DNA from: a bacterium
Lineage (GTDB): Bacteria > SZUA-79 > Acidulodesulfobacterales > Acidulodesulfobacteraceae
Length of the DNA stretch: 34,803 nt
Reading direction: 5' to 3'
Assembly: GCA_021825865.1 (NCBI GenBank)
Contig: JAKAFU010000020.1
Location: forward strand, 1-34,803
The notes below the pieces were generated by a model. It worked only from the letters and a program-made list of their open reading frames with translations, was not told where the DNA came from and did no database searches. Position 1 is the first letter of the stretch. Every line of letters begins with the position of its first letter. The translations under genes were made by a program, and so were the position numbers. Shown here one piece after another: positions 1,204 to 31,965 of the stretch.

Positions 1204-1428
1204 TTATTTTTTCACGTAAACGGTGTATTCCGGTTCGGCTACATCATAGGAAAGGAATTCGTGACCTGTTTTTTTACAGTAGCTTTTTAAATCTTCTATT
1301 ATGCCCTCGTCTGAAGCCGTAACTTTTAAAACTGAGCCGTCCGGAATCTTTTTAAATTCTTCCGCTACTTTCATTATAGGAACCGGACAGCTCAATCCGA
1401 ATGTATCTAATTCATAATCGTAATTCAT
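1204..1428 (-). CDS. tusA: TusA/SirA-family sulfur carrier protein
   Basis: This 74-residue protein matches the full length of the TusA fold. The family signature GLSCPVPIMK lies at residues 11-20, with the sulfur-accepting cysteine at 14 in CPVP. TusA-family proteins carry persulfide between a desulfurase or sulfurtransferase and acceptors in tRNA thiolation, molybdenum cofactor assembly or dissimilatory sulfur metabolism. It follows iscU and the iscS-like gene on the same strand but has its own promoter (1675-1703) and a leader with a 17-bp hairpin. Since the neighbouring desulfurase homologue looks inactive, the sulfur source for this TusA is uncertain. Only a weak GAAGA stands before the ATG. 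Confidence 0.88.
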   Translation of the reverse strand: MNYDYELDTFGLSCPVPIMKVAEEFKKIPDGSVLKVTASDEGIIEDLKSYCKKTGHEFLSYDVAEPEYTVYVKK

Positions 1429-1704: not shown

Positions 1705-2151
1705 TCAGGCATGCTCCAGCTCGTCTAAGCCCTCATGCTCATGGTCGCAGGTCTCAACCTTGGCAATATGACCTTTGCCGGCTTTTACCGATTTGTAATC
1801 TTCGATTGCAAGATGAAGCGCATCGGCGGCTAAATTGGAACAGTGCATCTTAACCGGAGGCAGTCCGTCAAGAGCCTCCGCTACGGCGGCATTTGATATT
1901 TTTTCGGCTTCTTCGAGCGTCTTGCCCTTAACCAGCTCCGTAACCATAGAACTTGTTGCAACGGCTGCGCCGCATCCGAATGTTTTAAATTTTACGTCTT
2001 CAATTTTATCGTCTTTTACTTTAATATAAATTTTCATTATATCGCCGCAAGTGGGATTTCCTAATTCGCCTATCCCGTCGGCGTCCGTTATTTCACCTAC
2101 ATTTCTTGGATGCTGAAAGTGATCCATTACTTTTTCAGAATATACAGGCAT
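1705..2151 (-). CDS. iscU: IscU/NifU N-terminal-type iron-sulfur cluster scaffold
   Basis: The protein has 148 residues, the length of a stand-alone IscU plus a short tail. The three cluster-ligand cysteines are all present: C35 in NPTCGD with the stabilising Asp at 37, C60 in FGCGAA, and C104 in KMHCSN with its preceding His. This scaffold builds [2Fe-2S] or [4Fe-4S] clusters and passes them to apoproteins. The tail after about residue 130 is rich in His, Glu and Asp with one Cys (TCDHEHE), a possible metal-binding extension. The ATG has a good ribosome site (TAAGGAG). It lies 255 bp downstream of the iscS-like gene, its expected partner. Confidence 0.92.
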   Translation of the reverse strand: MPVYSEKVMDHFQHPRNVGEITDADGIGELGNPTCGDIMKIYIKVKDDKIEDVKFKTFGCGAAVATSSMVTELVKGKTLEEAEKISNAAVAEALDGLPPVKMHCSNLAADALHLAIEDYKSVKAGKGHIAKVETCDHEHEGLDELEHA

Positions 2152-2406: not shown

Positions 2407-3588
2407 CTATTTACCGCTTTTAGCTTCTTCATACAGCGGCGACATTTCTCTTAATTTCTGAACTATGGGAGGCAGCTGCTCCGTAAAATACCTAGCGTCT
2501 TCCATAGTATTGTCTTCTCCCAGCGATATAAGCAGCGAACCCTGCGCTAATGCGGCATCGACGCCTATCGCCGTCAATACATGGGAAGATTTAAGTATTT
2601 TAGAAGTGCAGGCAGACCCGCTCGCGACCATTATACCGCTGTTGTTAAGCCACATGAGGATAGATTCTCCTTCTATATATTTTATGACAAAATTTATATT
2701 ATTCGGAAGCCTGTTCGTCCTGCTGCCGTTGAGATACACCTCGTCAATCGACGATAAAACGGTGTCTATGATGTGTTTTTGAATAGGCAGAAGATATTCG
2801 CGTCTTTTATTTAATTCATTTTTTGCGAGCTCGCACGCTGCGCCTGCTCCGGCTATTGCCGCAACATTTTCCGTTCCGGCCCTCCTTCCGAATTCCTGCA
2901 CTCCTCCGTCTATCAGAGGCATTATGCGCGTACCTTTTTTCAGATAAAATAAACCGGCTCCTTTAGGACCGTAAAATCTGTGTGGAGCTGCCGACAGCAT
3001 ATCGACGCCTAGCTCTTTGACGTCGGTTTCTATAAATCCGCACGAAGTATTAGCGTCGGTATGCATATATGCTCCGCTGCCAAATCCGTGAACTATCTCG
3101 GATATTTCTTTTATATTCTGTATAGTGCCTATTTCGTTAGAAGCGTGTGTTATGCTGACTAAGATTGTATCTTTCCTCATAGCGTTTTTAACGTCGTCGG
3201 GATTCACAAAACCGTCCTTGTCAACCGGAAGAGCCGTAAACTCAAATCCGAGCTTTGTAAGCGATTTAACGGCGTTTAAGACGCTGAAATGTTCTATGCC
3301 GGAAACAATTATGTGTTTGCCTTGAGCCATACGCGCAAAAGCGGCGCCTTTTATAGCCAGATTGTTAGATTCCGAACCGCTTGAAGTAAATATAACTTCG
3401 TTAGAAGCGCAGTTAAACAACGAAGCAGCCTGAACGCGGGCTTTATCTAACGCCTCTCTGGGCGCATCGCCGAGATTATGTATGCTCTGAGCATTTCCGT
3501 ACTCCTCTATAAAAAAAGGCTCCATAGCCGACTTTACTTCCGGTCTCATTTTTGTTGCAGCAAAATGGTCAAAATTTATAGTTTTCAA
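2407..3588 (-). CDS. NifS/IscS-like protein lacking the PLP lysine; probable inactive desulfurase partner of IscU
   Basis: The fold is that of a class V aminotransferase/cysteine desulfurase (about 393 residues). I place the start at the TTG at 3588 because GGAGG stands 5 bases before it; the in-frame ATG at 3600 has no ribosome site and would overlap that GGAGG. Numbered from the TTG, conserved features are His100 (GIEH), Asp178 (HTDA), RRAGTENVA and the mobile-loop Cys327 (GSACTS). The Schiff-base lysine of the usual SAHKxxGPKG is replaced: SAAPHRFYGPKG puts Arg204 there (codon AGA at 2979-2977). The substrate-carboxylate Arg is also gone (GSLLISLG, Leu353), and the PLP-contacting Gln is Thr181. 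Normal desulfurase chemistry is therefore not expected. The IscS of Archaeoglobus fulgidus is a known precedent for a lysine-less, desulfurase-inactive partner of IscU. Confidence 0.85.
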   Translation of the reverse strand: MKTINFDHFAATKMRPEVKSAMEPFFIEEYGNAQSIHNLGDAPREALDKARVQAASLFNCASNEVIFTSSGSESNNLAIKGAAFARMAQGKHIIVSGIEHFSVLNAVKSLTKLGFEFTALPVDKDGFVNPDDVKNAMRKDTILVSITHASNEIGTIQNIKEISEIVHGFGSGAYMHTDANTSCGFIETDVKELGVDMLSAAPHRFYGPKGAGLFYLKKGTRIMPLIDGGVQEFGRRAGTENVAAIAGAGAACELAKNELNKRREYLLPIQKHIIDTVLSSIDEVYLNGSRTNRLPNNINFVIKYIEGESILMWLNNSGIMVASGSACTSKILKSSHVLTAIGVDAALAQGSLLISLGEDNTMEDARYFTEQLPPIVQKLREMSPLYEEAKSGK

Positions 3589-3660
3589 TTTTACCTCCAT
3601 AATGACAAGTAACAATCAAGTAAAAAAATATATCAATACATTGCTTTATTTTAATTTATT

Positions 3661-3745
3661 TATTTTAATTACTTTTAATTACTTTTAATTACTTTTAATT
3701 ACTTTTAATTACTTTTAATTACTTTTAATTACTTTTAATTACTTT
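3661..3745. repeat. 10-bp tandem repeat with helically phased A/T tracts
   Basis: Seven exact copies of ACTTTTAATT run from 3671 to 3740, with degenerate copies on both sides. The 10-bp period places the TTTT/AATT tracts on one helical face, which would make the DNA intrinsically curved. It lies upstream of the iscS-like gene, between that start and the 3809-3844 terminator. Confidence 0.9.
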
Positions 3746-3946: not shown

Positions 3947-4336
3947 TTATTTTAAAGAATCTAAATACGAAGCAAGTTCAAACAATTCTTTTTTGTTAAG
4001 CATTTTATGGTCAGGCATAATAGCCATAAAGGTTTTACCGTTTATTTTTACCATAGAACCGGATTTAAAATGTTTTCCGGGCGTAGCTATCTGTGTTTCA
4101 ATCCATTTAATAGAATGTTTTGCAAGACCTTCCTTTGAAAGATTAGGTCCGACGTTGCCGCCTTTGCCGTCTATCGTGTGGCATGCAAAGCAATCAATAC
4201 CGGGTTTATGAGAATGGATAAGCTCGCCTCCTAACTGAGCGGCGCTTAATTTAACCGGAGCAGTTAAAGCATGAACGGTAATATAACCGAAAACTATTAC
4301 TAAAACAATAAATACGACTGTAATTCCTTTTTTCAT
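3947..4336 (-). CDS. Small class I monohaem cytochrome c, exported
   Basis: The 129-residue protein begins with a hydrophobic segment (about 5-22) that is either an uncleaved membrane anchor or a signal peptide ending near VHA. The haem motif CFACH lies at 49-53, followed by GKGGNVGPNL. The distal Met ligand is probably M107 in AIMPDHKML, the usual position in small electron-carrier cytochromes c. It would act in the periplasm, shuttling electrons between membrane complexes; the partner is not visible here. The ATG has an AAGGGGG ribosome site. It lies downstream of apt with a small hairpin between them and is closed by the terminator at 3809-3844. Confidence 0.85.
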   Translation of the reverse strand: MKKGITVVFIVLVIVFGYITVHALTAPVKLSAAQLGGELIHSHKPGIDCFACHTIDGKGGNVGPNLSKEGLAKHSIKWIETQIATPGKHFKSGSMVKINGKTFMAIMPDHKMLNKKELFELASYLDSLK

Positions 4337-4495: not shown

Positions 4496-5029
4496 CTAAT
4501 ACGATATCAAAGAAAATACCCCGTACGGTTTTAATTTTTCTCTGCCGTTTAAGAAAGTTAATTCTGCCAGAAAAGCAGTCTCTACTACTTCTGCTTTAAA
4601 TTCAGATATAAGTCCGGCAACGGCGGCAGCGGTACCCCCTGTTGCAAGAACATCGTCCGCTATGACAACCCTGTCGTTTTCTTTAAGAGCGTCTTTATGA
4701 ATTTCGAGCGTTGCGCTGCCGTATTCAAGGTCATAACTCATGGCATTGCACTCTGCCGGAAGTTTACCGGGTTTTCTTACAAGTATAACGCCGCAGCCAA
4801 GTTTATAGGCAAGCGCCGAACCGAAAACGAAACCTCTGGCCTCGACGGAAACAATATAGTCTATCGATTCGCCTATATAACGGTTTGCAAGCATATCAAT
4901 CGTATAATTGAAAGCCTTGGAATGCGCAAGTAAAGTAGTTATATCATAAAAATTAATTCCTTTTTTAGGAAAATCAGGTACTTCGCGGATATAACTTTTT
5001 AACTCTTCAGGATTTTTTATGTTTTTCAT
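4496..5029 (-). CDS. apt: Adenine phosphoribosyltransferase
   Basis: This 177-residue protein has the usual Apt length. It converts adenine and PRPP to AMP in cytoplasmic purine salvage. The PRPP-binding loop is [13 protein letters not shown] at 121-133. Other family signatures are [11 protein letters not shown] near the N-terminus (15-25), EARGF at 63-67, RKPGKLP at 85-91 and SYDLEYG at 98-104. The ATG has no clear ribosome site. Transcription probably starts from the consensus promoter at 5231-5259, leaving a leader of about 195 nt that contains a 26-bp direct duplication. Confidence 0.95.
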
Positions 5030-5052
5030 TGTTTTTTCGGTTTAATTTATAT

Positions 5053-5108
5053 TTACATTTATTTGATGTATATTAACTTAACTTACATTTATTTGATGTA
5101 TATTAACT
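5053..5108. repeat. 26-bp direct repeat, period 30 bp, in the apt leader
   Basis: Identical copies lie at 5053-5078 and 5083-5108 (core ACATTTATTTGATG, then TATATTAACT). Degenerate TTTATATTGATT-like units continue to about 5190. Confidence 0.8.
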
Positions 5109-5230
5109 CAAGTTATATTGATTAAATTTATATTGATTTGATTTATATTAACTTAATTTATATTGATTTAATCTATGTTGATTTTATTTGTTCGTCTGGC
5201 TGTTTAATGTTATATCTGATTTATTTTGTA

Positions 5231-5259
5231 ATTATAAAACATCAATTTTTTTATGTCAA
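5231..5259 (-). promoter_or_regulatory. Full-consensus sigma-70 promoter for apt
   Basis: On the minus strand TTGACA (5259-5254), a 17-base spacer and TATAAT (5236-5231) match the consensus at all 12 positions. Transcription should start near 5224. Confidence 0.75.
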
Positions 5260-5301
5260 TAATTTAATGCTGTATATATATAAATATATACGTTAATCAA
5301 T

Positions 5302-5516
5302 GATGGACACCTATAATTAATTAGAAACTTATTAATCAGGAACAGATGCCGATAACTTACGAAATATGGAAAACTTAATCTATCTATATAATATATGTAT
5401 ATGTTTAATTAATTTAGAGATAGACGCATATAATTAATTACAGAAATAATTAATTTAGAAACAGATGCCTATAATTTAAAAATTAAATTTATTTATATAA
5501 TATATACTTATATATA
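5302..5516. repeat. Diverged direct duplication of about 100 bp
   Basis: 5302-5400 and 5419-5516 align in order: GATgGAC/GATaGAC, then TATAATTAATTA, then AACAGATGCC, then TATATAATATAT. The offset is 117-119 bp. It lies downstream of the GT2 gene and upstream of the apt promoter. Confidence 0.55.
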
Positions 5517-8352: not shown

Positions 8353-10605
8353 TTAACCCCGCATCTTAAGTAATTGCGCTAATACACAGTTATATCTGTC
8401 TTTTAATTCAATAGACGCGTCTATCGTTAAAACAGCTGCGCCGCCAGACTGTGAAACCGGTTCGTCAAGGGTTTTCTTCATTCTCAAATAGACTTCTTCA
8501 TCTGCATCTGAATAATCTTTAGTAAAATCATTTGATTTAGAATTCCCTTCTGAATAATCTTTGGCAAAGCCGTCTGTTTTAGAATTCCCTGCGGTTTGAC
8601 AGTCTGTATGGAGGCTGCGGTCAACAGGGCACTCGAAAGACTCTGACGACTCTGCAGATTTAAAATCAGATTTTGTCTTTCTGCTTTTAAGCCGCTCAAT
8701 AATTATATTTTCATTTTCTTTATATATTTTAGAGTAAATAACAATAAAATTACAGTATTTTTTAGTAAAATAATCAATAAATATTTTTCTATGCCCGGCT
8801 TCCAAAAATGTTGCATCCATGACAACGTTTTTTTTAAGTTCGACGGCTTTCTTGGATTCCTCGAATATATATTCGTAAACCCTCCGGCTTATAGACTTGT
8901 CATATAAATATACGTCTTTTGATGCAAATAATTCTTTTCTTATTTTATCGGAAGTTAACAATGAAGCATTTAAATATCGGCTTAAAAGAAAAGAGAGTGC
9001 GCTTTTCCCGCTTCCCGGAAGTCCTACGTTCATTACAATAACGGGTTTTGCCAATAACTCGGCATAAAACATAGCTAAATTAAAATAATTTGCTGCTTCG
9101 TTAAGTTTATCCGCAACGTTTTCTTTGCTGTCATTGTTCTCTTTGTTTTCTTCTGTCTTATGATTTTTATTATTATTTTTATTATATTTGTATGATGTTA
9201 TTTGAGCCGCGCTACCTTGCTCTGTCTTATTATTTTCACCGTGTGTTTGCAGAATAGCGATTTTGCATCTGACAAGAGCCCTGTACAATTTATATGCTAA
9301 AATTACTTTAAATTCATATTCCTGAAACAGATTAATTAAACCGGCGCTAAAATAATTTTTGTAATATTCAAATATTTTACCGGATTCATAAAAATATCCT
9401 CTGTGCTCCATATCCATCAGCAGAAAGGCAAAATCTAAATAAACATCCTGAAACCTTAATTTTTCGCTGAATTCTACGCAGTCAAGAATGCATATGCCGT
9501 TGTTCTTAGAAATATTTCCGATAACTATATGTTCCATTCTTAAATCGCCGTGACAATCCTTAACTAACCCTTTGCTTATTCTTAATGTTATATATTGTGC
9601 AAATTCATCGGAATTTATAAAATCATAAAAAATATTATTCAGTTTTTTAAGATTATTCTGATTATTCTGATTATTTATTTTTTTTAGAGCATTTAAATAA
9701 TTTATATTGTTTACATTATTTATCTTATTGATACTATTTGCGCTGTTTGTATTATTTGTGTTATTTGCGCTGTTTATGTTATTTATCTTATCTTCTGCGT
9801 TATCTATATTATTTATATTGTTTAACGCATCAAAATTTAATTCTTTTTCTTCGCTGATAAAATTATAGACGGCTGAATAATTATCGTCAAAATTCTCTTT
9901 TAGTACATCAATCTTTCCGAACATGGAAATTCTTTTTGAACTATTTGCGTTTTTATGAAAAAGATAAATCCTTTTAGCTGTTTTTTGCAGAATTTTATCA
10001 ATATCAGTATAAATATCAGCATCGGTTTCAGTTTTAATATCAATATAGGTATTATTATTAACATTAGTTTCAGTTTCAATGTTAATATCAGTATTACTGT
10101 TAATAACAATATCATTAACATTGTCAATATTATTAATATCCTCGCCTTTGTCATCAAATCCGCATCGTTTTTTACCCCGTTTTTCTTTATCTTTAGCAAG
10201 AATAGCGTCTAAAAATTGAACATCCGCAACACGTTTCATCCTTACCAAATAATCGATAATTTTTCCTTTTTTATATCCCAGCAGCAGACTGCCGTCATTC
10301 TTTAGCCTTAATTCAGGCATATCAAGGTATATTCCGGCACACGACCTTCTATTGAGCGACAGTTCTTTTCTGCAGTAAAATTTTCTTTTTTCTAAAGACG
10401 TGTAGTCTAAAAATCCGAAATTAACTTTTTTCTTTTGTTTATATGCGAATTTTTGGGTGAGATAGATTGACGAAATGTGAGTTTCGATAACTTTTATTTT
10501 ATTAATGTTATCGGGATTTATCGGTTTTTTTTCAAACTTTATAATGGCTTTAATAACATCTGCGCTATTTATTTCATAGCTGTTTAGTATATCTGTATCC
10601 TGCAT
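8353..10605 (-). CDS. Fused APH-like kinase and P-loop kinase with Asn-rich inserts
   Basis: The protein is 750 residues long, while the usual bifunctional aminoglycoside phosphotransferase-like/ATP-binding proteins have about 500-550. The N-terminal two thirds carries the APH-type catalytic core, with HGDLRMEH at 352-359 and the metal-binding ILDCVEF at 373-379. The C-terminal part is an AAA-type small-molecule kinase with Walker A GLPGSGKS at 528-535, TSDKIRKELF and MDATF. The excess length comes from low-complexity inserts at about 154-206, 258-325 and 456-500, rich in N, I, D, T and K, and a 14-residue in-frame repeat at about 672-699. Substrates are unknown; antibiotic resistance should not be assumed. 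It lies between rpoS (39-bp gap) and the GT39 gene (40-bp gap), probably in one operon. Confidence 0.78.
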   Translation of the reverse strand: MQDTDILNSYEINSADVIKAIIKFEKKPINPDNINKIKVIETHISSIYLTQKFAYKQKKKVNFGFLDYTSLEKRKFYCRKELSLNRRSCAGIYLDMPELRLKNDGSLLLGYKKGKIIDYLVRMKRVADVQFLDAILAKDKEKRGKKRCGFDDKGEDINNIDNVNDIVINSNTDINIETETNVNNNTYIDIKTETDADIYTDIDKILQKTAKRIYLFHKNANSSKRISMFGKIDVLKENFDDNYSAVYNFISEEKELNFDALNNINNIDNAEDKINNINSANNTNNTNSANSINKINNVNNINYLNALKKINNQNNQNNLKKLNNIFYDFINSDEFAQYITLRISKGLVKDCHGDLRMEHIVIGNISKNNGICILDCVEFSEKLRFQDVYLDFAFLLMDMEHRGYFYESGKIFEYYKNYFSAGLINLFQEYEFKVILAYKLYRALVRCKIAILQTHGENNKTEQGSAAQITSYKYNKNNNKNHKTEENKENNDSKENVADKLNEAANYFNLAMFYAELLAKPVIVMNVGLPGSGKSALSFLLSRYLNASLLTSDKIRKELFASKDVYLYDKSISRRVYEYIFEESKKAVELKKNVVMDATFLEAGHRKIFIDYFTKKYCNFIVIYSKIYKENENIIIERLKSRKTKSDFKSAESSESFECPVDRSLHTDCQTAGNSKTDGFAKDYSEGNSKSNDFTKDYSDADEEVYLRMKKTLDEPVSQSGGAAVLTIDASIELKDRYNCVLAQLLKMRG
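8507..8590. repeat. Two tandem 42-bp in-frame units
   Basis: 8507-8548 and 8549-8590 share TCTGAATAATCTTT at the start and TTTAGAATTCCCT at the end. They encode two 14-residue copies of the pattern NSKxDxFxKDYSxG near the end of the kinase gene. Confidence 0.8.
9631..9834. repeat. Intragenic simple-repeat expansion encoding Asn-rich insert
   Basis: Codons about 258-325 of the kinase gene consist largely of 6- and 9-base variants of ATTATT/TTTATATTG on the plus strand, read as AAT and ATA/AAC codons on the coding strand. The product is a run of NN, NI, NT and NS pairs between otherwise conserved kinase segments. A similar tract lies at 9988-10146. Confidence 0.7.
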
Positions 10606-29237: not shown

Positions 29238-30065
29238 TTATAAATTCAGTCCGCTGTGATTTATTCCTTCAATATCTACCGCAACTGTTTTAAATCCTAT
29301 TCCTTTTATTTTTGATATAATATCAGATAATGATTCATATTGCATTAAATTATTAATTTGCGCCGCAGGAACTTCAATTTTTGCCAATTTTCCATAATAT
29401 CTTACCCTTACTTCGTTAAATCCGTTTTGCGTCAGCACATCTTCAGCCCTTTCAACCATTTTAATTTTTTCTTCCGTTACAATGCTGCCGAACGGTATTC
29501 TTGAAGCAAGACAAGCCATTTGAGGTTTATCCCACGTATCAAGCTCAAAAAATTTAGAAGCGTTTCTTATATCGTTTTTAAAAAACCCGGCTTCTTTTAA
29601 AGGAGATATGACATTAAATTCTTTTTCGGCTTTCATTCCCGGTCTATCTTTAAAATTAGCTTCGTCTTCGGCATTAGTTCCGACGGATAATTTGTAGCCC
29701 TCTGGAATATAAGGTCTTATGGTCTTGAATAATGCAATTTTACAAAAATAACATCTTAAATAATCATTTTTTAAATATGATTCGTCTAAATACTCTTTAG
29801 TTTTAACTATAATATGTTTTACGCCTAATTCAAACGCCTTTTTTTTACAAAACTCGACTTCTCTGCCCGGTATTGTAAAGGAATTACCTGTAATAGCCAA
29901 TACATTTTCGGCGCCGAGCGTTTTTACGGCAATAAATAATAGAAAAGTTGAATCTGCTCCTCCGCTGTATGCAACGGCAATTTTTTTTTCACTGCCGAGA
30001 ATCAATTGAATCTTTTCTATTTTTTGCAACAAATCATCATCTATTGTATTTATATCGGTATTCAT
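29238..30065 (-). CDS. larE: LarE-type sulfur transferase of nickel-pincer nucleotide synthesis
   Basis: The 275-residue PP-loop ATPase has AYSGGADSTFLL at 32-43 and the LarE motif PQMACLASRIPFG around Cys185, the sulfur-donating or cluster-binding cysteine. Two more cysteines form RCYFCK (105 and 108). LarE thiolates the pyridinium biscarboxylate made by LarB; LarC then inserts nickel to give the cofactor of lactate racemase and related epimerases. LarE proteins with three such cysteines have been described as binding a [4Fe-4S] cluster that supplies sulfur catalytically. larB lies 1.2 kb away on the opposite strand; no larC or larA is in the window. Position between mrdA and the PpiD-like gene is odd. 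Confidence 0.85.
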   Translation of the reverse strand: MNTDINTIDDDLLQKIEKIQLILGSEKKIAVAYSGGADSTFLLFIAVKTLGAENVLAITGNSFTIPGREVEFCKKKAFELGVKHIIVKTKEYLDESYLKNDYLRCYFCKIALFKTIRPYIPEGYKLSVGTNAEDEANFKDRPGMKAEKEFNVISPLKEAGFFKNDIRNASKFFELDTWDKPQMACLASRIPFGSIVTEEKIKMVERAEDVLTQNGFNEVRVRYYGKLAKIEVPAAQINNLMQYESLSDIISKIKGIGFKTVAVDIEGINHSGLNL

Positions 30066-31133: not shown

Positions 31134-31245
31134 AAATAAATCCTCTTTTAATTTTTTAAAATTAAATATAATATATAATTTTATACGTCTTATGTTTTTA
31201 ATGCAAATAAAAAATAATTTAAAGGTTAAATCAAAGAGCAATTTT

Positions 31246-31965
31246 ATGGAACCTTTTGACGAAAATTTCACGGACAATAATACTTGCGCCGATACGAATT
31301 ATATCAACCTGCATTTTGCAAAATTAGATATTAACCGTCTAAAAAGAGCAGGCAAGCCTGAAGCAGTCTTATGCGACGGAAAAACCCCGGCAGAGATTTT
31401 AAAAATAGCAAAAACATTAGAAAGGATTGCAAATAACGTCATTTTTACGAGAGTAAATTATAAAATAAAAAATATCCTTCTTTCAAACTGCAAAAAAACA
31501 ATATACTACGACAAAGCAAAAATTATAGTATTAAATCCGCTGCAGCCGGAGGAATGCAAACTTAAAGGAAATATTCTCATCGTTACCGCAGGTACGTCTG
31601 ATATACCGGTTGCCGAAGAAGCCGCAGTTACGGCAGAAGTTTTGGGGAATAAAATATCTAAACTTTATGATATAGGAGTTGCCGGAACTCACAGAATTTT
31701 TGACAATATAGACAAAATTAAATCGGCTGACGTTATCATAGCCGTTGCCGGAATGGACGGCGTGCTTCCTACTTTTATTTCAAGTTTAGTCGATGCAGCG
31801 GTCATCGCAGTGCCTTCGTCTAATGGTTATGGAACCGGATTTAACGGAATATCGGCTCTTCTTTCTATGCTTAACAGCTGCTCCGGAGGTTTATTAACGG
31901 TAAACATAGACAACGGATTCGGCGCCGGCGTGGCAGCTAGCATCATTAATAAAAAAATTAAATAG
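31246..31965 (+). CDS. larB: LarB, pyridinium-3,5-biscarboxylic acid mononucleotide synthase
   Basis: This is the only clear plus-strand gene. It has 239 residues from the ATG at 31246, which has AAAGAG upstream; an in-frame ATG at 31192 lacks a ribosome site. The N-terminal LDINRLKRAGKPEAVLCDGKT and the AIR-carboxylase-like core (VTAGTSDIPVAEEAAVTAEV, GVAGTHRI, AGMDGVLPTFISSLVDA, VPSSNGYGTGFNGISALL, TVNIDNGFGAG) match LarB. It carboxylates and hydrolyses nicotinic acid adenine dinucleotide, the first step to the nickel-pincer cofactor. It diverges from the PpiD-like gene over 112 bp of A/T-rich DNA with TTAATTTT-TT-AAAATTAA, and converges with mreD. Confidence 0.88.
   Translation: MEPFDENFTDNNTCADTNYINLHFAKLDINRLKRAGKPEAVLCDGKTPAEILKIAKTLERIANNVIFTRVNYKIKNILLSNCKKTIYYDKAKIIVLNPLQPEECKLKGNILIVTAGTSDIPVAEEAAVTAEVLGNKISKLYDIGVAGTHRIFDNIDKIKSADVIIAVAGMDGVLPTFISSLVDAAVIAVPSSNGYGTGFNGISALLSMLNSCSGGLLTVNIDNGFGAGVAASIINKKIK

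Follow-up and report, generated by a model that had tools for sequence, protein, structure and literature searches.

Textbook Fe-S cluster assembly begins with a cysteine desulfurase, and a desulfurase that has lost both its PLP lysine and its substrate arginine is expected to be inactive. The locus described here encodes such a protein side by side with an IscU scaffold and a TusA-family sulfur carrier, and it raises the question of what the protein does there and where its sulfur comes from. The locus lies in a window of 34,803 nucleotides (the whole stretch of DNA that was analysed; contig JAKAFU010000020.1 of assembly GCA_021825865.1) from a bacterium of the family Acidulodesulfobacteraceae, hereafter the home family, one named member of which is Candidatus Acididesulfobacter diazotrophicus.

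An IscS-like protein without two catalytic residues

The protein, here called IscS*, is an IscS/NifS-like protein without the PLP lysine and the substrate arginine (Table 1). The segment SAAPHRFYGPKG is found in its translation, and positions 2979-2977 read AGA. A preliminary description of the locus had placed Arg at the PLP lysine, Leu at the substrate arginine and Thr at the PLP-contacting Gln, with the mobile-loop cysteine, His100 and Asp178 retained, and all of this is confirmed in the sequence. The fold of IscS* is given by solved relatives, with matches over the full length. Its TTG start at 3588 lies 5 bases after GGAGG, and close relatives have ATG at the same start position.

Table 1. 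Features of the iscS* locus, in coordinates of the window
Feature	Position	Strand	Remarks
iscS*	2407-3588	-	open 393-aa frame, IscS/NifS type, TTG start
Arg204 codon (AGA)	2977-2979	-	Schiff-base (PLP) lysine column; sequence read
Leu353 codon	2530-2532	-	substrate-carboxylate arginine column (GSLLISLG)
Thr181 codon	3046-3048	-	PLP-contacting Gln column (DANTS)
Cys327 codon	2608-2610	-	mobile-loop cysteine (GSACTS), kept in all relatives
MSPLY motif	2431-2445	-	C-terminal in IscS*; region that E. coli IscS needs for IscU binding
GGAGG	3594-3598	-	likely ribosome-binding site for iscS*; sequence
iscU	1705-2151	-	scaffold, NifU_clost type (TCGD, FGCG, LPPVKMHC); downstream of iscS*, same strand
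tusA	1204-1428	-	TusA-family sulfur carrier with CPxP; downstream of iscS*, same strand

Of the features that define an active group I desulfurase, IscS* has the mobile-loop cysteine and is without the PLP lysine and the substrate arginine. The combination of a loop cysteine with no PLP lysine is that of the non-desulfurase IscS of the Archaeoglobus fulgidus type. IscS* scores below the cut-offs of the curated NifS model TIGR03402 (436.8 vs 530.75) and the curated IscS model TIGR02006 (345.6 vs 643.2), which is a weak test, given that a Lys-less relative, L107, passes TIGR03402 and the Lys-containing IscS of the home genome fails.

The IscU encoded in the window scores 218 bits with TIGR03419 (cut-off 187.9) and has the three cluster cysteines and the Asp, and the TusA scores 73.6 bits with PF01206 (cut-off 28.6) and carries GLSCPVP. 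Just upstream of iscS*, at 3655-3745, the 10-mer TTTAATTACT is repeated in tandem about nine times to form an AT-rich array, and a gene for a small, weakly SoxX-like c-type cytochrome (3947-4336, minus strand) adjoins iscS*. Elsewhere in the window, the sacrificial sulfur transferase LarE (29238-30065, minus strand) is encoded close to LarB (31192-31965, plus strand); both belong to nickel-pincer cofactor synthesis, a further sulfur-using pathway in the same window. A 750-aa protein (8353-10605, minus strand) has a P-loop kinase-like domain (AAA_33) at its C-terminus and contains long Asn-rich tracts encoded by short DNA repeats.

The preliminary description had also allowed for a point error at the lysine codon. 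This is ruled out, since Arg stands at the lysine column in all same-family orthologues read (77-98% identical) and none of these close orthologues has Lys; of eight whose codon was checked, seven use AGA and the eighth AGG. A pseudogene is likewise ruled out by the dN/dS of iscS*, which is 0.025-0.07 (about 0.05) where dS is unsaturated, and a viral origin by the absence of relatives among viral contigs.

Loss of the substrate arginine marks a group of IscS-like proteins

A profile search of 386 genomes, together with the home family and Elusimicrobia, gave 128 non-redundant homologues. We counted the residues at the two columns, as the preliminary description had proposed: 51 homologues are without both Lys and Arg, 75 have both and 2 are without Arg only. 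In other words, Lys is absent from 51 of the 53 Arg-less proteins and present in every one of the 75 Arg-containing ones. The residues that replace Lys in the Arg-less set are R, V, Q, S, H, T and G. The retention of the loop cysteine, seen earlier in the single protein, extends to all 51 Lys-less proteins, and so does that of the Asp178 and His100 counterparts; the counterpart of Thr239 is kept in 49 of the 51, and the RxGTEN residues, donated across the dimer interface, are kept as well. The PLP-contacting Gln survives in 5 of the 51, and the His before Lys is often lost. Since Cys327, Asp178 and His100 are conserved throughout and dN/dS is about 0.05, IscS* is a selected protein and not a product of decay.

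In a tree built after removal of the trait columns, all Arg-less proteins, including that of A. fulgidus (4EB5), fall on one side of a branch with support 96/85. Although the tree is unrooted, this branch sets IscS* and A. fulgidus IscS together apart from canonical IscS, as expected from common ancestry; the A. fulgidus row is itself a long one, and no closer relative is supported for it. The Arg state requires one change on the tree and the Lys state two. Because it takes fewer changes, and because two families, f98 (L181/L182) and f263 (L271, L273, L274, L278, L282), are Arg-less yet keep the PLP lysine, loss of the substrate arginine is the better mark of the family. Both f98 and f263 have TusA nearby, and it is possible that their proteins are intermediates between active and Lys-less forms. 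A further bacterial Arg-less IscS (L231, genome G413) has Asp at the Lys column, like the A. fulgidus protein, and TusA nearby; the same genome carries a second Lys-less copy (L228) near IscU, TusA and DsrE2. The Arg-less group as a whole spans several phyla.

Sulfur carriers in the gene neighbourhoods

TusA and DsrE2 are carriers of persulfide sulfur. TusA is encoded no more than 1.5 kb away in 10 of the 15 Arg-less families compared with 0 of 41 canonical families (p=8e-8), and DsrE2 within the same distance in 7 of 15 compared with 0 of 41 (p=3e-5). The families counted are related rather than independent, and the canonical members were selected by their scores against an Arg-less profile. 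Linkage to IscU is alike in the two groups (12/17 Arg-less and 22/41 canonical families). The domains of the neighbouring proteins were confirmed by Pfam; the linked DsrE2 proteins all share a cysteine, and the linked TusA and IscU proteins keep their active cysteines.

The usual gene orders are nfu-dsrE2-iscS*-iscU-tusA, nfu-iscS*-iscU-dsrE2-tusA, iscS*-dsrE2-tusA and tusA-iscS*-iscU. The order varies within the home family too (iscS*-iscU-tusA or iscU-tusA-iscS*) while the linkage persists, and where a home-family locus has sufficient flank, IscU almost always adjoins iscS*. The phyla of G114 and G070 are represented by four genomes each, and the wider check used the phylum of G289, where IscU is found at 29 of 29 Arg-less loci and TusA at 27 of 29. 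In one iscS* operon (L104), a haem-NO-binding (HNOB) gene (4825-5343, minus strand) stands between dsrE2 and tusA, a hint that the pathway may respond to nitric oxide through a sensor.

In E. coli, Cys328 of IscS lies opposite Cys19 of TusA, some 4 A away (PMC2854127). Among the residues of that TusA interface, the counterparts of Glu49 and Asp52 are kept in IscS* and those of Trp45 and Arg237 are not; acidic residues at the interface positions are also seen where relatives have no linked TusA.

No TusA gene was found in six Arg-less genomes (G084, G227, G095, G564, G565 and G567), of which the first three are 98-99% complete. TusA as a universal donor is thereby ruled out. Since it is absent from these genomes, another donor must serve there, be it sulfide, canonical IscS or another carrier. 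SufB/D was not found in 16 of the 20 Arg-less genomes checked, and therefore in many of them the IscS*-IscU pair may do a large part of the work.

The likely partner of IscU in the home genome

The search for a Lys-containing IscS elsewhere in the genome, also proposed in the preliminary description, found one canonical copy on contig C59; it keeps both Lys and Arg and shares 35% identity with IscS*, so the possibility that the home genome is without such a protein is ruled out. Across 19 home-family genomes, the canonical iscS has cysE and an iscR-like gene of the Rrf2 type as neighbours; in almost every one of them, mnmA and a gene for a radical-SAM methylthiotransferase-like protein are also near. 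No TusA was found near it in any of the 19. The canonical IscS of these 19 genomes has no SPLY tail, its C-terminus stopping before the motif. The iscS* and canonical iscS genes are apart in every home-family genome.

A search for NifU_N genes in the home genome found just the iscU of the window, and no SufB/D match was found in this assembly, which is 90.5% complete; neither a second IscU nor SufB/D was thus found as another scaffold for the Fe-S work. Seven genes of the genome score above the cut-off for the TusA family, and two strong DsrE2 genes are present as well. In E. coli, IscS no longer binds IscU once residues 374-404 are removed (PMC2854127). Given the gene linkage and the C-terminal tail, it is likely that IscS*, not the canonical IscS, is the IscU partner in the home genome. 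In the home family, then, a protein that appears to be desulfurase-dead accompanies the only IscU found.

Possible routes of sulfur to IscU

We propose, at a probability that we would put just short of even, that IscS* is a desulfurase-dead partner of IscU, that the two form the main Fe-S pair, and that Cys327 is loaded with sulfane sulfur, mostly from TusA. Judging by its residues and by the A. fulgidus protein, IscS* would perform no cysteine desulfurase chemistry. It would bind IscU, the only one of the genome, and form with it the cell's main Fe-S assembly pair; since both the loop cysteine and the tail are kept, IscU docking and a role for the cysteine are likely. The linkage of TusA and DsrE2 to Arg-less genes suggests sulfane sulfur from carriers. 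Cys327 may accordingly be pictured as taking up sulfane sulfur of outside origin, usually delivered by the TusA of the same locus, with a DsrE2-TusA relay as the probable supply in other lineages, and as handing it to IscU or helping to ligate the nascent cluster. The putative flow from TusA to IscS* would be the reverse of that in E. coli, where IscS loads TusA. The preliminary description had left TusA short of a donor; in the better reading, TusA is itself the donor. Without an IscU-binding tail and encoded near iscR, cysE and tRNA-modification genes, the canonical, Lys-containing IscS would provide for tRNA thiolation and other needs for cysteine-derived sulfur.

A more general form of this proposal is an ISC branch independent of cysteine, with the loss of Arg as its mark and with members in several bacterial phyla and in archaea, in which sulfur would pass from DsrE2/TusA through a dead IscS to IscU and which might be the sole cluster route in some lineages. 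We regard this generalization as somewhat more doubtful than probable.

The source of sulfur favoured in the preliminary description was different, namely free sulfide, with IscS* docking on IscU, Cys327 acting as a cluster ligand and, in the form considered here, TusA linked for some other reason. A. fulgidus IscS, in which both residues are lost too, is indeed inactive as a desulfurase and its cysteine ligates the cluster on IscU (PMC7585200, PMC9769115), and E. coli IscU obtains sulfur from H2S without IscS under anaerobic conditions (PMC13015791); genomes with IscS* and without TusA also occur. However, the linkage of both TusA and DsrE2 is not predicted by a sulfide-fed pair, which we consider rather unlikely. 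Of the earlier interpretation, the view of an IscS-like, IscU-partnered and probably non-desulfurase protein resembling A. fulgidus IscS is upheld by the shared residue losses and the grouping in the tree, whereas free sulfide as the source is not established. Cysteine could still be the origin of the sulfur if IscS* were a dedicated adaptor that receives it from the canonical IscS, directly or as a mixed dimer, on behalf of IscU. Where further IscS copies of Arg-less genomes were read, most of these genomes also hold a canonical IscS, which would fit such a role, as would the adjacency of both genes in several Endomicrobia and the conserved cross-dimer RxGTEN residues. The separation of the two genes throughout the home family, the low identity of the pair there (~35%) and the structure of the A. 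fulgidus protein, solved as an (IscS)2(IscU)2 complex (PMC9769115), speak against it, and we find such an adaptor quite improbable.

PLP may still bind to IscS*, and some PLP chemistry is possible, because Asp178 and His100 are always and Thr239 is almost always kept. That IscS* uses PLP for another reaction, or that another lysine substitutes for the missing one, nevertheless seems to us very improbable. The conserved contacts to the pyridine and the ring (Asp178 and His100 in all, the Thr239 counterpart in 49/51) and the Lys retained in the Arg-less families f98 and f263 would agree with it, but the Gln and the His preceding Lys are often lost. The GPKG lysine is disfavoured as a substitute: it is also present in active enzymes and varies among relatives (GPAG in L148, GPRG in L076, GPLG in L231). 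Returning to the proposal of a carrier-fed IscS*, the TusA link makes the sulfur source of such systems directly testable.

Comparison with known systems

An IscS without the PLP lysine is already known from A. fulgidus and from Methanosarcina acetivorans (IscS1). The A. fulgidus IscS2-IscU system (4EB5, 4EB7) shares with IscS* the loss of Lys, substrate Arg and Gln, as well as the loop cysteine, the SPLY tail and the IscU partner; the sequence that we used equals 4EB5 over 382 residues, with Lys replaced by Asp and Arg by Leu. It differs in being archaeal and in having Asp rather than Arg in place of Lys, and a TusA link is unreported for it in the open literature examined. M. acetivorans IscS1-IscU1 also has no essential lysine and is encoded by an iscSU gene pair (PMC7585200), but it is archaeal and is likened to IscS* by description, not by sequence. 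The MIS system (MisS-MisU) is similar as a minimal pair of IscS and IscU homologues (PMC12442378), although MisS is described as a cysteine desulfurase (PMC11559095). The E. coli IscS-TusA-IscU hub has the same fold, partners and loop cysteine (PMC2854127), but its IscS desulfurates cysteine and loads TusA, whereas IscS* is without the catalytic residues.

In the open literature, most subscription papers lying outside this scope, we found no report of a bacterial Lys-less clade, of the coupled loss of Arg or of the TusA-DsrE2 link. An entire clade, uncultivated to a large extent, appears to have kept the desulfurase fold and partner while the chemistry is gone, which suggests that bacteria with IscS* build their Fe-S clusters from sulfur supplied by another route. 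Automatic annotation can call such proteins cysteine desulfurases despite the two missing catalytic residues. One case is the Lys-less L107 (5992-7176, plus strand), which passes the NCBIfam model 'cysteine desulfurase NifS' (540 vs 530.75); because this cut-off is passed, public annotation will name it an active enzyme.
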